In this document: piece after piece, positions 8,715-37,568 of the stretch | Numbering within the stretch: the stretch's first letter is position 1 | Layout of the letters: each line of letters begins with the position of its first letter | Source of the DNA: Geobacteraceae bacterium | Lineage (GTDB): Bacteria; Desulfobacterota; Desulfuromonadia; Geobacterales; Geobacteraceae | Reading direction: 5' to 3' | DNA: 49,382 bases | NCBI GenBank assembly: GCA_017861285.1 | Contig: JAGFXO010000008.1 | Span: forward strand, 1 to 49,382 | Notes under the pieces: generated by a model | Databases searched by the model: none | What the model saw: only the letters and a program-made list of their open reading frames with translations | What the model was told of the DNA's origin: nothing | Position numbers and translations under genes: made by a program

Positions 8715-8894
8715 GGAGTATATCGAAAAGGCGGGCAAAGGGCACGGAGCACGGAATATTACTGCTTGCTATTGTTTTTCCTGATTTGGTACTATAAAAA
8801 AGTTGCATGATGATGAGAAGCACATTCATAAGCCCGATACTTTCCCCCTTTTTCCGGTGAAGGTAAATCGGCTATTTTTTTGGCGGTGGTTTAC

Positions 8895-9227
8895 ATGCAC
8901 GAGATGTCCATAACGCAAGGTGTCGTAGAGATATGCGAGAGCACCGCAGCCGGAAGGCGGGTCCTCTCGGTTGTTCTGGAAATAGGCGAATTGAGCAATG
9001 TGATTCCGGAAGCCGTGGAGTTCTGTTTCGAGGCATGCACGAAGGATAGCGGCCTCGAAGGAGCCAGGCTCACTATCGAGCGCATACCGGGGCGGGGACT
9101 TTGCAGGGAGTGTGCCGAAGAATTTGCCGTCAAGGCATACTACGGAAGCTGCCCATCCTGTGGCGGTTACCACGTCGATATCATTTCCGGCGAGGAATTA
9201 CGGGTTAAAGAACTGGAGGTAGAATAG
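8895..9227 (+). CDS. hypA: hydrogenase nickel insertion protein HypA
   Basis: 110-aa HypA, the nickel chaperone that works with HypB to load Ni into NiFe-hydrogenase large subunits. The start MHEMSI is diagnostic: His2 with the N-terminal amine binds nickel, so I chose ATG 8895 over a TTG five codons upstream. A zinc finger with two Cys pairs (CRECAEEF and CPSCGG) occupies the C-terminal third. It heads a hypA-hypB-hypF-hypC-hypD-hypE cluster and ends 2 bp before hypB. It diverges from the kinase gene. No hydrogenase structural genes are in the window. Confidence 0.95.
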   Translation: MHEMSITQGVVEICESTAAGRRVLSVVLEIGELSNVIPEAVEFCFEACTKDSGLEGARLTIERIPGRGLCRECAEEFAVKAYYGSCPSCGGYHVDIISGEELRVKELEVE

Positions 9228-9229
9228 CC

Positions 9230-10048
9230 ATGTGTACAACGTGCGGGTGCGGTCCCGCTGAGCATCATCATCACGATCATGACCACGGCCATGATCATAA
9301 ACACGAACATGATCATTCTCATCATGACGACCATACCCATGAGCATGATCACGGCAATGAGCATCGGCATCACCACAAAGTGGACACCACGGCGAAGTCC
9401 ATAACCGTGGAAACCGATATCCTTGCCAAAAACAACCGGCTGGCGGCGGGAAACCGGACCCTTTTCACCAGTAAAGGTGTTTTCGTGCTGAATCTCGTCA
9501 GTTCACCCGGCTCCGGCAAAACAACGATTCTCGAAAGGACCCTCCGTGACCTGAACGGTACATTCGCTTTTGCCGTTATCGAGGGGGACCAGCAGACGGA
9601 CAACGATGCCATGCGCATCGCCGCCACCGGAGTTCCGGTAAAGCAGGTCAACACCGGAGCGGGATGTCATCTGGATGCGCATATGGTCTGCCATGCAGTT
9701 GAAAATTTTGATATGGACAATCTTGATATCCTGCTGATAGAAAATGTCGGGAATCTTGTGTGCCCGGCCTCCTTCGACCTGGGTGAAAATCACAAGGTAG
9801 TCGTCCTGAGTGTTACCGAGGGAGAGGACAAACCCCTCAAATACCCGAGCATGTTTCACAATGCCGACGTCATGCTGCTCAACAAGGTCGATCTCCTGCC
9901 GCACATAGATTTCGACGCCGAAAAGTGCAAAGCCTTTGCCCGCCGGGTTAATCCCGACATCCTCATATTTGATGTCTCCAGCAAGACCGGCGAGGGGATG
10001 AATGCCTGGTACGAATGGCTTGGAGCAGGTGCAAGGAAAAGCCGTTAA
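9230..10048 (+). CDS. hypB: hydrogenase nickel incorporation GTPase HypB, His-rich
   Basis: 272-aa HypB GTPase, which drives nickel delivery to the hydrogenase precursor together with HypA. The N-terminal MCTTCGC supplies the high-affinity CxxCGC nickel site. It is followed by a long His/Asp/Glu-rich run (about residues 12-49), as in HypB proteins that store nickel. The G domain shows P-loop SSPGSGKTT, EGDQQTDNDA, the metal-binding GAGCHLDAHMV segment, and LLNKVDLLPH for guanine recognition. The gap to hypA is 2 bp, and 74 bp separate it from hypF. The repetitive His codons give a methionine-rich antisense frame that is not a gene. Confidence 0.96.
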   Translation: MCTTCGCGPAEHHHHDHDHGHDHKHEHDHSHHDDHTHEHDHGNEHRHHHKVDTTAKSITVETDILAKNNRLAAGNRTLFTSKGVFVLNLVSSPGSGKTTILERTLRDLNGTFAFAVIEGDQQTDNDAMRIAATGVPVKQVNTGAGCHLDAHMVCHAVENFDMDNLDILLIENVGNLVCPASFDLGENHKVVVLSVTEGEDKPLKYPSMFHNADVMLLNKVDLLPHIDFDAEKCKAFARRVNPDILIFDVSSKTGEGMNAWYEWLGAGARKSR

Positions 10049-10122
10049 ACAGTTCGGGAACACAGGACCCCGGATCCGGACCCGGTGCATTTCACCTGCT
10101 GTTATAAGGGGAGTCTCACACG

Positions 10123-11643
10123 ATTAGAAGAGTCAAGGTCCACATAGAAGGAATAGTCCAGGGGGTTGGTTTCCGCCCCTTTATATACAGGCTGGCGAAA
10201 GGCCATCGGCTGACGGGTTGGGTAATGAATACCCCTTCCGGGGTGTTTCTCGAGGCGCAGGGGGGGGAGGAAGATGTCGAGTGTTTTCTTCGCGGGGTGC
10301 GTGAGCAGGCGCCTCCCCTTGCGGTAATCAGTTCTGTCAGGTCCGGGGACATGACGCCTGTGGCCGAGAACGGCTTTGCCATCCGGGAGAGCGGCGGAGG
10401 CGGCAACGCGGTGCAAATTGCCCCTGATTGCGATGTTTGTCCCGACTGCCTGCGCGAATTGTTCGATCCTGCCGACCGCCGCTACCGGTACCCCTTCATC
10501 AACTGCACAAATTGCGGTCCGCGATACACCATCATCAATGGCATTCCGTACGACCGGTCGTATACCACCATGGCCGGTTTCACCATGTGTGATCAATGCC
10601 GCGCCGAATACGAGGACCCGGCCCACCGCAGATTTCATGCCCAACCTAATGCCTGTCCGGTATGCGGCCCATCGCTCAGGCTATTCGATTCGCGGGATAA
10701 TAATGTTGACGGTGAACCCCTGGAAACGGCGGTCAGTCTGCTGAAACGAGGGAAGATCCTTGCCCTTAAGGGGCTTGGGGGGTACCATCTGGCGGTTGAC
10801 GCGTGCAATGATGAAGCCGTCCGGGAATTGAGGAAACGGAAAAAACGCGATGAGAAACCCTTCGCGATCATGTCGCCGGCGCTTGCCGATATCGCGGAGT
10901 TTGCCGTTTTCGATGAGACTGAAAAAAGGCTCCTCTCCGGGCCGGAACGGCCTATTGTGCTGCTCAGGAAACGGGAGGGGAATCACATTGCGCCCCTGAT
11001 CGCCCCGGCGAACGGCTATTTTGGCGTAATGCTGCCCTATACGCCGCTGCATCACCTGCTGCTCAGGGATGCCTTCCCGGCACTGGTAATGACCAGCGGC
11101 AACCTGTCCGATGAACCGATCTCCTACCGGGATGACGAGGCGTTGCGGCGTCTTGCGGATATTGCCGATTTCTTCCTCACCCACAACCGTGAGATTCATA
11201 CCCGTACCGATGATTCGGTGATCAGGGTGTTTCAGGGAAACCCGATTTTCCTCCGCCGCTCGCGGGGGTATGTGCCACGCGGCATCACACTGCCTGCAAC
11301 TCAGAAGAGTGTCCTTGCGGTAGGCGCCGAACTGAAGGGGACGGTTTGCCTCACCAGGGGAGACAAGGCTTTTCTCAGCCAGCACATCGGTGATCTGCAA
11401 AATTCCGCAACCCTTGCTTCAATGGAAGAAACGGTTCATCATCTCGGTCAGATCCTGAAAATAGAGCCGCAAGTGGTTGCCCATGATCTCCATCCGCGGC
11501 GTGCAACACCACCATGCCCATATGGCGTCCTGCATGGCGGAAAACGGGTTGGAGGGAGCGGTACAAGGGGTGATTTTCGATGGTACCGGATACGGACCGG
11601 ATGGAACCATCTGGGGCGGAGAATTTCTGGTCGGCGGCTATGA
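10123..11643 (+). pseudogene. hypF: carbamoyltransferase HypF, N-terminal part; frame broken by internal deletion
   Basis: N-terminal portion of HypF, which makes thiocarbamate on HypE for the CN ligands of NiFe hydrogenase. Intact here are the acylphosphatase motif (VQGVGFRPF, from about 10153), two zinc fingers (CPDC...CTNC and CDQC...CPVC) and the YrdC-like domain (GLGGYHLAVDA). No ATG, GTG or TTG exists between the in-frame stop at 10105 and the conserved motif. AGGGGAG (10106-10112) instead points to ATT 10123. Starting at ATG 10225 would remove the acylphosphatase active site. The HypF frame is lost just after HDLHP (about 11496); the last 49 or so codons to 11643 are out of frame. Either a recent pseudogene or an assembly error. 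Confidence 0.8.
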
Positions 11644-12343
11644 GGATTTCCGGCGAAAGGGGCATTTGCGGGCGGTGCCCCTGCCCGGCGGTGATGCCGC
11701 GGTGCGGGAGCCATACCGTATGGCACTTTCCCACCTTTATTCGGTTTTTGGTGATGAGCTTTTCGAACTGCCGCTGGCCTGTGTACAAGCGGTCCCTGCC
11801 GCCGAACGAAAACTTTTCCTGAAAATGCTGGAGCGGCGGCTAAATTCGCCGCTTACTTCCAGTTGTGGCAGGCTGTTTGACGCCGTTGCCGCAATGACCG
11901 GATTACGCGGCATGGTTTCCTATGAGGGACAGGCGGCAATCGAACTGGAGGCCCATGCCGAATCGGTTGAGACGTCCCTTCGTTATCCTTTCGAAGTAGT
12001 GACGGAAGAAGATTGCTATGTCACCGATTTCAGTCATATGATCCGTTCAATTGTCCGGGACATGGGGTTGGGAAGGCCGGGCGCGGAAATCGCCAGATGC
12101 TTTCACAATACCCTTGCGGCCGCCGTGGCCGAGACCTGCGGTTTAATCCGCGGGGATACGGGAATAGGGAGGGTTGTCCTGTCCGGCGGGGTTTTCCAGA
12201 ACAAATTGCTGAGCGAGGGTATTCATACTCTCTTGACGGAGAATAAATTTCATGTTTTTACCCAGCGGCTTGCCCCTCCCAACGACGGGGGGATTGCCCT
12301 GGGGCAGGCAATAATTGCGGGAAGGAGTATTTCATGTGTTTAG
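11477..12343 (+). pseudogene. hypF: carbamoyltransferase HypF, C-terminal (Kae1-like) part in shifted frame
   Basis: Continuation of HypF in another frame. It resumes at GVQHHHAHMASCMAENGL (from 11501), which holds the metal-binding histidines of the Kae1-like carbamoyltransferase domain. It ends normally with SGGVFQNKLL and APPNDGGIALGQA. In the family about 20 residues separate the DLHP motif from VQHHHAH; only 4 bases (11497-11500) separate them here. This fits a deletion of roughly 50-60 bp whose length is not a multiple of three. Two in-frame ATGs (11477, 11483) could restart translation, but no clear ribosome site precedes them. The end overlaps hypC by 10 bp, as in an intact operon. 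Confidence 0.8.
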
Positions 12344-12567
12344 CGGTTCCGATGCAGGTTGTCAGAATAGAAGGAGGCATGGCTATTGCGGAAGTTGACG
12401 GAGTCCGGAGGGAAGCAAGTCTCATGATGCTGAGCGAAGAGATAAAAGAAGGTGACTACATCCTGATCCATGCCGGTTTCGCCATCAGCCGGCTCGATGA
12501 GGACGAAGCCCTTGAAACCCTGGAACTGATGAGGGACTGCCTCGAACTTGGACAGGAAACGGCATGA
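12334..12567 (+). CDS. hypC: hydrogenase assembly chaperone HypC
   Basis: 77-aa HypC/HupF-family chaperone. The start MCLAVPMQV is diagnostic: Cys2, exposed after Met removal, binds the Fe(CN)2CO moiety and the hydrogenase large-subunit precursor. HypC carries the iron centre with HypD. Usual length is 75-90 aa. The gene overlaps the hypF tail by 10 bp and shares an ATGA overlap with hypD, so it is translationally coupled within the cluster. The tight spacing suggests the operon is still arranged for co-expression despite the broken hypF. Confidence 0.96.
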   Translation: MCLAVPMQVVRIEGGMAIAEVDGVRREASLMMLSEEIKEGDYILIHAGFAISRLDEDEALETLELMRDCLELGQETA

Positions 12568-13661
12568 TCAATCTTGAAGAATTCCGGAGCCGCGATATCG
12601 TCAAAGGTCTGGCCGCAAGCATACGAAACCGAACCTCTGGCCTCTCGGAACCGATCACGCTCATGGAAATCTGCGGCACGCATACCATGTCCATTTACCA
12701 GTACGGTATACGCAGCCTCCTTCCGCCGCAGGTACGCCTGATTTCGGGGCCGGGCTGCCCGGTCTGCGTTACACCTGTTGATTACGTGGATCAGGCTGTT
12801 GCCTGCGCCCGCCTGCCCGAGACAATCGTTGCCACCTTTGGCGATATGCTCCGGGTCCCCGGCTCTACCTCGAACCTGATGCAGGAGCGCGCCCGTGGCG
12901 CCGATGTCAGGATTGTTTATTCACCACTGGATGCCGTAAATCTTGCCGCGAAACATCCCGGCAAAAAGATAGTTTTTCTCGGGGTCGGTTTTGAGACGAC
13001 TGCTCCGACCATTGCAGGGAGTATCCTGACCGCCGCCTCCCGGGGACTTGACAATTTCCTTGTCCTTACTGCGCACAAGACGATCCCGATTCCCATGCGG
13101 ATATTGTCCGCGGATCCCGATCTGGGGATAGACGGATACATCTGCCCCGCGCATGTGAGCGCCATCATTGGCGCCAATGCCTACCGTTTCCTTGCGGAGC
13201 GGCACGGGGTCCCGTGTGTCGTTACCGGTTTCGAGCCGGCTGACGTCATGCAGGGAGTGGAGATGCTTGTCCGGCAAATGGTTGAAGGCCGTAGTGAAGT
13301 GGAAATACAATACAGCCGGTTTGTGACCTGGGAGGGAAATCTCAAGGCCCAGGGACTTCTCGATGACGTGTTCAACCCCATTGATGCCACCTGGCGCGGA
13401 TTGGGCGTCATTCCGGGAAGCGGATTGCAAATAACTGACAGGTATGCTCCCTTTGATGCGGCAAAGGCGCTTCCCGTTACGGTTGAAGAAGCGAGAGAGC
13501 CTGAGGGGTGCCTGTGCGGCGAGGTGCTGAAGGGTAAAATTGCTCCCTTCGACTGTCCGCTCTTCGGCAAAGCCTGTACCCCGGAGGCGCCGGTAGGAGC
13601 ATGCATGGTTTCTTCCGAGGGGAGCTGTGCGGCTGCCTACAAATATGGGCAGGTTTGCTGA
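12564..13661 (+). CDS. hypD: hydrogenase formation protein HypD
   Basis: 365-aa HypD, the [4Fe-4S] scaffold on which the Fe(CN)2CO group of NiFe hydrogenases is built with HypC. Conserved motifs are MEICGTHTMSIYQYGI, GPGCPVCVTP (redox-active cysteines), GFETTAPT and FEPADVMQG. The C-terminal cysteine set (GCLCGEVLKG, FDCPLFGKACTPEAPVGACM, GSCAAAYKY) should ligate the iron-sulfur cluster. Full length. The start ATG overlaps the hypC stop. Confidence 0.96.
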   Translation: MINLEEFRSRDIVKGLAASIRNRTSGLSEPITLMEICGTHTMSIYQYGIRSLLPPQVRLISGPGCPVCVTPVDYVDQAVACARLPETIVATFGDMLRVPGSTSNLMQERARGADVRIVYSPLDAVNLAAKHPGKKIVFLGVGFETTAPTIAGSILTAASRGLDNFLVLTAHKTIPIPMRILSADPDLGIDGYICPAHVSAIIGANAYRFLAERHGVPCVVTGFEPADVMQGVEMLVRQMVEGRSEVEIQYSRFVTWEGNLKAQGLLDDVFNPIDATWRGLGVIPGSGLQITDRYAPFDAAKALPVTVEEAREPEGCLCGEVLKGKIAPFDCPLFGKACTPEAPVGACMVSSEGSCAAAYKYGQVC

Positions 13662-13751: not shown

Positions 13752-14765
13752 GTGGATTCAGATATCATCCTTCTTGGCCACGGCAGTGGCGGAAAACTTT
13801 CCCACCAATTGCTGGAGGACCTTATTATTCCGACGCTGTCCGGAGTTCCCGTTGCCGGGCAGAACGATGCAGCGGTGCTGGTGCAAAACGGGGAGCGTCT
13901 CGCGTTTACCACCGACTCCTACGTGGTTGATCCGATCTTTTTTCCCGGCGGCAACATTGGCGATCTGGCAATTAACGGTACGGTCAATGATCTGGCAATG
14001 GTCGGGGCTACACCGTTGGCAGTCAGTGTGGGGCTAATCCTGGAAGAAGGATTCAGCAAGGGAGATCTTGCCCGAATACTTGCTTCCATGCGGGAGGCTG
14101 CCGACCGGGCTGGCGTCTCCATAGTGGCGGGCGATACCAAGGTTGTGCCGCGGGGCAAGGCGGACCGGATATTCATTAATACTTCGGGTATCGGCATATT
14201 CACCCATCAGCTCGATATAAGCGGGGCCAATGCGCAGGTCGGAGACAAGATAATCATTAACGGTACCATTGGCGACCATGGCATAGCCGTAATGGCAAAA
14301 AGGGAGGGTCTGGAGCTGGAAACGGACATCGTCAGCGATTGTTCGGCCCTGAACGGCATGGTAGCGGACCTGCTCAGGGAAGATGGCTGTTCCATCCATG
14401 TGCTGCGGGATCCCACCCGCGGAGGGGTTGCAACTACCCTGAAGGAGATAGCGCTGCAGTCCGATGTCTCGCTGACCCTCCATGAGGACTCGCTGCCGCT
14501 GAAAGGTGCGGTGAAGGGGGTTTGCGCGGTGCTCGGCCTCGATCCCCTCTATGTGGCGAATGAAGGAAAGGTTCTCGTTTTTGCCGCAGCCGACGCGGCT
14601 CACCGTGTGCTTGAGCGGATGAAACGGCATCCCCTGGGGAGTGATGCGTCAATCATCGGGGAAGTGACGGCGGAAGGCGGCGGCAGGGTGCAGATGGAGA
14701 CTCTCGTGGGGGGGCTCCGCGCAGTGGAAATGCTTGCCGGAGAGCAATTGCCGAGAATCTGCTGA
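13752..14765 (+). CDS. hypE: hydrogenase expression/formation protein HypE
   Basis: 337-aa HypE, a PurM-like ATPase that dehydrates a C-terminal thiocarbamate to thiocyanate for the CN ligands. The protein ends in PRIC, the conserved tail whose cysteine accepts the carbamoyl group from HypF. N-terminal LLGHGSGGKL and ATP-site segments NDAAVL and FTTDSYVVDP are visible. The start is GTG 13752, with AGGAG 6 nt upstream; a TTG at 13713 would add 13 non-family residues. The gap to hypD is 90 bp. Without a working HypF this cysteine would have no carbamoyl donor. Confidence 0.94.
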   Translation: MDSDIILLGHGSGGKLSHQLLEDLIIPTLSGVPVAGQNDAAVLVQNGERLAFTTDSYVVDPIFFPGGNIGDLAINGTVNDLAMVGATPLAVSVGLILEEGFSKGDLARILASMREAADRAGVSIVAGDTKVVPRGKADRIFINTSGIGIFTHQLDISGANAQVGDKIIINGTIGDHGIAVMAKREGLELETDIVSDCSALNGMVADLLREDGCSIHVLRDPTRGGVATTLKEIALQSDVSLTLHEDSLPLKGAVKGVCAVLGLDPLYVANEGKVLVFAAADAAHRVLERMKRHPLGSDASIIGEVTAEGGGRVQMETLVGGLRAVEMLAGEQLPRIC

Positions 14766-36597: not shown

Positions 36598-36731
36598 ACA
36601 GCAGTCTGCCGTAATCGAGGCGCAGAGAGCATACAATCTATACAGGGCGAAAAGTTCCTTGCGGGACGGCTGGAAGCAAAACCGGATCGGCCTTCCGAAA
36701 CAGGTTGCAATCGCCCGTGATGGGAGGAAAC

Positions 36732-37568
36732 ATGGATTTTCTGGACAGGAGTTCGGCTCCGCTTACCGATGAAGAATGGCGCCGTGTTGATGAAGCAGTG
36801 GTTGAGTCCGCCCGCAGGATGCTGATCGGCCGTCGCATCCTGAATATTCTCGGACCCCTTGGATCAGGAGTGTATAGTATTCCCTATTCGGTATTCAGCG
36901 GCAAGACGCAGGCTGGTGTCGATATGATTGGTGAAAAGGAAGATCTCGTTGTCGAAGCTGACCGCCGGGCAACGATAAATCTCCCGATCCTTTACAAAGA
37001 TTGCAAGATATTGTGGCGTGATGTCGAGGCCGACCGGCATCTGGGTATACCCCTGGATGTCAGCACCTTTGCCGTTGCGGCCAGTTTCGTAGCTTCCCAG
37101 GAAGACAATCTCGTTTTTAACGGAAATGTCGAACTCGGTCATGAAGGTCTTTTTACGGCTTCGGGAAGACTCTCAGTTCCGATTGGAAGCTGGGACAAGA
37201 GCGGAACTGCCCTTGCCGATGCGGTGAAGGCTGCCGGAGCTTTGTCCTCTGCCGGTCATTACGGACCATATGCCATGGTTGTCAGCCCGGTTCTTTTCGG
37301 GAGCATGGTGCGGGTATACGGCAATACCGGAATGCTTGAACTCGATCAGGTGAAAGCGCTGATGGGCGGGGGAGTCCATTATTCGAATGTTATCAGTGGC
37401 AAGAAAGCGGTGGTGATTGCCCTTGGTCAGCAGAACCTCAATCTTGCCGTCGGCCAGGATATGGCGACCGGTTATATGGGGCCGGTCAATATGAATCATC
37501 TGTTCCGGGTGATGGAAACCCTGGCCCTGCTGATCCGGCGTCCGGATGCCATTTGTACCATTGAATAA
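36732..37568 (+). CDS. encapsulin shell protein, family 1
   Basis: 278-aa HK97-fold shell protein (linocin/CFP29 family) that self-assembles into a hollow icosahedral compartment. Typical N-terminus MDFLDRSSAPLTDEEWRRVD and motifs SVFSGKTQAGVDMI, IPLDVSTFAVAASFVASQED, SPVLFGSMVRVY and the C-terminal LALLIRRPDAICTIE agree with characterised family 1 shells, as does the length. ATG 36732 has GGAGG 4 nt upstream; a TTG further upstream is in frame but unsupported. With the upstream EncFtn cargo, it would form an iron-storing nanocompartment. Confidence 0.95.
   Translation: MDFLDRSSAPLTDEEWRRVDEAVVESARRMLIGRRILNILGPLGSGVYSIPYSVFSGKTQAGVDMIGEKEDLVVEADRRATINLPILYKDCKILWRDVEADRHLGIPLDVSTFAVAASFVASQEDNLVFNGNVELGHEGLFTASGRLSVPIGSWDKSGTALADAVKAAGALSSAGHYGPYAMVVSPVLFGSMVRVYGNTGMLELDQVKALMGGGVHYSNVISGKKAVVIALGQQNLNLAVGQDMATGYMGPVNMNHLFRVMETLALLIRRPDAICTIE

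Follow-up and report, generated by a model that had tools for sequence, protein, structure and literature searches.

A probable near-cognate start codon and a 50-nt interior lesion in hypF of a Geobacteraceae hyp operon

Described systems and the hypF locus

To our knowledge, conserved non-canonical start codons have been characterised in few bacterial genes. The infC gene encodes translation initiation factor IF3 and starts with ATT in E. coli and with ATC in Streptomyces. All NiFe hydrogenases require HypF, as part of the HypA-F pathway, for their cyanide ligands, and we know of no link between HypF and translation initiation. Through its near-cognate start, infC is under feedback from IF3, which it encodes (PMC5472188). 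In Streptomyces, sigR has a GTC start and was shown by experiment to be repressed by IF3 (PMC5472188). Such starts are misannotated because gene-finding programs accept only ATG, GTG and TTG (PMC5472188).

The hypF gene studied here lies on the + strand of a 49,382-nt stretch of DNA, called the window below, from a Geobacteraceae bacterium (GCA_017861285.1, contig JAGFXO010000008.1). As in infC, a near-cognate start that follows a good Shine-Dalgarno sequence appears to be conserved over long distances, but the hypF start alternates with ATG. As in sigR, an operon gene would be kept low by a non-canonical start and misannotated by gene finders. However, sigR uses one codon in one lineage, whereas hypF varies among ACG, ATT, ATC, ATA and CTG. 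On these sequence comparisons, hypF would join infC and sigR as a gene of this kind, with unusually changeable codons. The open literature searched yielded no account of a non-canonical hypF start; one might be listed in a preprint on genes that prefer non-AUG starts by Gvozdjak and Samanta 2020 (arXiv:2008.10758, cited in PMC9845219). At the protein level, the full domain order is the same as in known HypF, the carbamoyltransferase of NiFe-hydrogenase maturation (structures 3vth, 4g9i and 3tsp), and the HypF protein of an intact relative matched 3vth with 686 bits. The window hypF differs from known HypF in that its Kae1-like domain has lost one helix and one strand and the reading frame is changed.

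Table 1. Positions of the hyp genes and of the hypF features in the window
Feature	Position	Strand	Basis or remark
hypA	8895-9227	+	ATG 8895 inside ORF 8880-9227; used as start control
hypB	9230-10048	+	ORF; 74% identical to L054
In-frame TAA upstream of hypF	10105-10107	+	sequence
Shine-Dalgarno GGGGAG	10108-10113	+	duplex of -7.8 kcal/mol with the anti-SD, start 10120
ACG, most likely hypF start (near-cognate)	10120-10122	+	column has ATG in other relatives
ATT, second-choice hypF start (column -9)	10123-10125	+	alignment
hypF N-terminal part	10120-11496	+	domain matches
hypF deletion junction	11497-11500	+	4 nt vs 54 in relatives
hypF C-terminal open frame	11477-12343	+	homology from GTG 11501 (VQHHHAH) to end
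hypC	12334-12567	+	ORF
hypD	12564-13661	+	ORF
hypE	13752-14765	+	ORF, GTG start

Elsewhere in the window, an encapsulin-type shell protein (Linocin_M18, PF04454) is encoded at 36705-37568 on the + strand, with TTG as its first start.

The start codon of hypF and its Shine-Dalgarno sequence

The preliminary description had stated that hypF lacks an ATG, GTG or TTG start before its acylphosphatase motif, and this was true back to the in-frame TAA: no such codon was found in frame between the TAA and the VQGVGFR motif, and the first canonical start is ATG 10225. After the TAA, only GGG GAG TCT CAC ACG ATT precedes the conserved N-terminus. The ACG is a one-base variant of ATG, it is properly spaced from the Shine-Dalgarno sequence, and its alignment column holds ATG in other relatives. 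The same column also holds ACG in four further genomes (G001, G021, G029 and G031). Judged from the alignment, the window hypF thus most likely starts at ACG 10120, and ATT 10123, which had been put forward as the Shine-Dalgarno-supported start, becomes the second choice.

The lack of a canonical start was not confined to the window. In the order, 17 of 86 hypF genes, the window included, had no in-frame ATG, GTG or TTG before the acylphosphatase core, among them an intact hypF from the same genus. Outside the order this was seen in one of 54 distinct hypF genes (L119, on a Methylococcaceae metagenome contig). The absent canonical start is an inherited trait of the clade's hypF and not damage, because intact relatives, the same-genus one included, have it too. 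Hence the earlier view that hypF is broken twice held for the interior lesion and failed for the start.

When the start position was chosen by Shine-Dalgarno pairing alone, the codon found there was ACG, ATT, ATC, ATA or CTG in 14 of the 17 genes, compared to 20 one-base ATG variants among the 157 other codons of the same stretches (binomial 1e-10, a value that ignores relatedness in a survey whose relatives are not independent). Codons also exchanged with ATG at fixed positions of the alignment. In genus g18, three genomes have ATG and three ATA in a single column; in f2 and g21 column -10 has ATG, and in g1 and g11 it has ACG or ATT, the neighbouring codons varying; and across families f1 to f3, ATG, ACG, ATT and ATC interchange at columns -10 and -9. 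The near-cognate label required at least 13 changes, or nine in the strict set, over those branches of the HypF tree that were supported. Two limits apply to these assignments. A hydrophobic second residue that is conserved may partly account for the Ile and Leu codons at column -9, and the start in genus g17 could be a GTG at -18 or -21 instead of CTG. The g17 CTG is ambiguous because sisters with an ATG start have the same Leu codon, and it was retained in the counts. In the same tree, the hypF genes L035 (G067, family f4) and L181 (G046) grouped with the window's genus, contrary to taxonomy, which suggests a transfer of hypF or its operon.

The other genes of the operon served as controls, and none lacked a canonical start (hypA 0/22, hypB 0/52, hypC 0/89, hypD 0/81 and hypE 0/21; 0/265 in total). 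As a further control, infC came out with ATA after GGAGGT in genomes of the order. Since infC is a known non-ATG gene, the survey method detects true cases. Among the infC loci L188-L212, the one of the window's own genome (L201, G000:C144) also has this ATA start. The non-canonical start of hypF is probably functional, and we infer initiation at ACG 10120 in the window.

It is very unlikely that translation of hypF instead begins at a canonical start farther upstream, with frameshifting or by extension of hypB. An overlap of hypB with the hypF start (ATAG or CTGA) does exist in several f4 genomes, but in the window and in G001 the ACG has an in-frame stop four codons ahead of it, and the Shine-Dalgarno sequence, at proper spacing, comes after this stop.

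The strength of the Shine-Dalgarno sequence differed with the start codon. Median pairing energies for hypF were -6.1 with near-cognate starts and -3.0 with ATG (p 7e-9), and the difference held on genus means (p 4e-4). In a tree-aware test with 12 independent pairs, about seven agreed and about 0.5 disagreed, a borderline result (median p 0.04, and 0.07 in the strict set). One hypothesis is that HypF synthesis is kept low either by a weak Shine-Dalgarno sequence or by a poor start codon. Extended to the whole order, the proposal would be a recurrent swap between ATG with a weak Shine-Dalgarno sequence and a near-cognate codon with a strong one, and we put this at a little under even odds.

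The interior lesion

The change of frame at 11497-11500 was confirmed. Past 11496, the N-terminal frame reads on in the wrong register until TGA 11641-11643, the open C-terminal frame spans TTG 11477 to 12343, and both pieces have no further stops. The nearest intact relatives do not differ from one another in length in this stretch; between HP and VQHHHAH they have 54 nt where the window has four. The window therefore lacks 50 nt, equal to 16 codons plus 2 nt. A loss before VQHHHAH had been recognised earlier, but its size had been given as about 20 residues or 55 bp. Pfam matches (PF00708, PF07503, PF01300, PF17788 and PF22521) extended over the two frames and together gave the HypF domain set of acylphosphatase, zinc-finger, YrdC/Sua5-like and Kae1-like domains. 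The N-terminal part carries the acylphosphatase, two zinc-finger matches, the YrdC/Sua5-like domain and the beginning of the Kae1-like domain, which continues in the C-terminal frame. No single uninterrupted reading frame with a complete Kae1-like domain was found in the window hypF: HypF_C matched in two pieces, positions 2-69 and 79-99 of 99, and positions 70-78 were absent. HypF_C runs uninterrupted over the deletion stretch in each of the 91 relatives with this domain, and none of them shows the lesion. Comparison with relatives, proposed in the preliminary description, showed that they lack the deletion and that several of them, the same-genus one included, share the absent canonical start.

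Frame changes of other kinds were seen in other hypF genes. In G002, a single-contig genome with two hypF copies, L041 has a frame change inside VQGVGFR and the other copy, L042, is intact. In the Geotalea toluenoxydans draft (G028; L176 and L129), the hypF frame stops after about 300 residues and the remainder is in another frame, which is either real or a sequencing error.

The lost residues start with HPDYxS, which is invariant in the 49 relatives of the commonest length. In a structure model of an intact HypF protein from the same genus (pLDDT 89.6), the lost stretch corresponds to a helix (460-467) and a strand (472-476), both conserved parts of the Kae1-like domain. This bears on the suggestion that the two halves act in trans, that is, as separately made proteins working together. 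The C-terminal frame has possible starts at TTG 11477 and ATG 11483, and the absence of further stops in both pieces would also suit a split HypF. However, the deletion takes a helix and a strand, placed with high confidence, and the invariant HPDYxS, rather than a linker, and such a split occurs in no relative; we therefore regard a working split protein as very unlikely.

Selection on the two fragments appeared normal. On the window branch, synonymous and nonsynonymous changes numbered 53-63 and 9-11 in the N-terminal part and 29-32 and 7-13 in the C-terminal part, resembling the counts of an intact relative and of hypD and hypE. No relaxed selection was seen in the hypF fragments, and these counts led us to reject an old pseudogene. 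The source genome (2.46 Mb in 225 contigs, 98.4% complete) yielded no second hypF, contrary to the idea of another copy. The protein of the intact relative gave otherwise weak matches to Sua5/TsaD-like paralogs, and these candidates were rejected. The search for NiFe-hydrogenase large subunits that had been proposed at the outset gave matches at several loci of the same genome; the match on contig C37 is full length and several others are cut by contig ends. No loss of pathway partners was seen, with hypA to hypE and the large-subunit matches all present. On the minus strand of another contig (L138, G000:C116), a second hypA and a second hypB, identified from translations read by eye, lie at 3346-2981 and 3003-2323 beside a group-4-like hydrogenase cluster.

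Because selection is normal, this hypF is the only one, and the hydrogenase loci and hyp partners are retained, the lesion is very young, confined to a strain variant or an assembly error. Of the earlier suggestions, a pathway that has just been lost and a wrong assembly both remain as readings of the interior lesion. We find it somewhat more probable than an even chance that the 50-nt gap stems from misassembly or from a minority strain variant and that the hypF of the dominant genome is intact. The assembly is a draft of 225 contigs, purifying selection is intact, all relatives are intact at the deletion stretch, and the junction lacks flanking repeats suggestive of slippage, none useful having been found there. 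However, a clean single loss of 50 nt would fit a real deletion equally, and no split pairs appeared among the other window ORFs scanned against Pfam, which also led us to reject a generally poor assembly. An unlikely possibility is that hypF is a true pseudogene, with start and middle both lost and NiFe-hydrogenase maturation abandoned. The broken frame and the failure to find a second hypF in the genome are in its favour, but the absent start is common to intact genes, amino-acid changes are not in excess, and several NiFe-hydrogenase loci are retained along with the other hyp genes.

Interpretation and significance

The reading that we prefer, with a probability of about 0.8, is an ordinary hyp operon in which hypF habitually has a near-cognate start and which carries one 50-nt lesion, a recent deletion or an assembly error; the assembly error or minority variant weighed above is one branch of this reading and compatible with it. 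It rests on comparison, namely intact genes without a canonical start, a Shine-Dalgarno-spaced near-cognate codon, the size of the deletion and normal selection. Under it, translation of hypF would normally begin at a near-cognate codon, which in the window is ACG 10120, preceded by GGGGAG. Such a start would recur across the order and probably limit HypF synthesis, a strong Shine-Dalgarno sequence going with a poor start codon and the relatives with ATG having a poor Shine-Dalgarno sequence. The 50-nt deletion would then have taken one helix and one strand out of the Kae1-like carbamoyl-transfer domain and shifted the frame, too recently for a trace of selection and perhaps in part of the population; alternatively, it would be an assembly error.

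If the deletion is real, all NiFe-hydrogenase maturation would be lost, but this concerns the source organism only, and the non-canonical start is the more interesting half of the case. If the start is as proposed, automatically annotated HypF proteins of Geobacter-like bacteria would lack some 35 residues at the N-terminus, the acylphosphatase motif among them, and apparent 'broken starts' can be regulation. If the order-wide swap also holds, it would mean a conserved initiation-level control in NiFe-hydrogenase maturation, perhaps through IF3, that was overlooked because annotation programs trim the HypF N-terminus.
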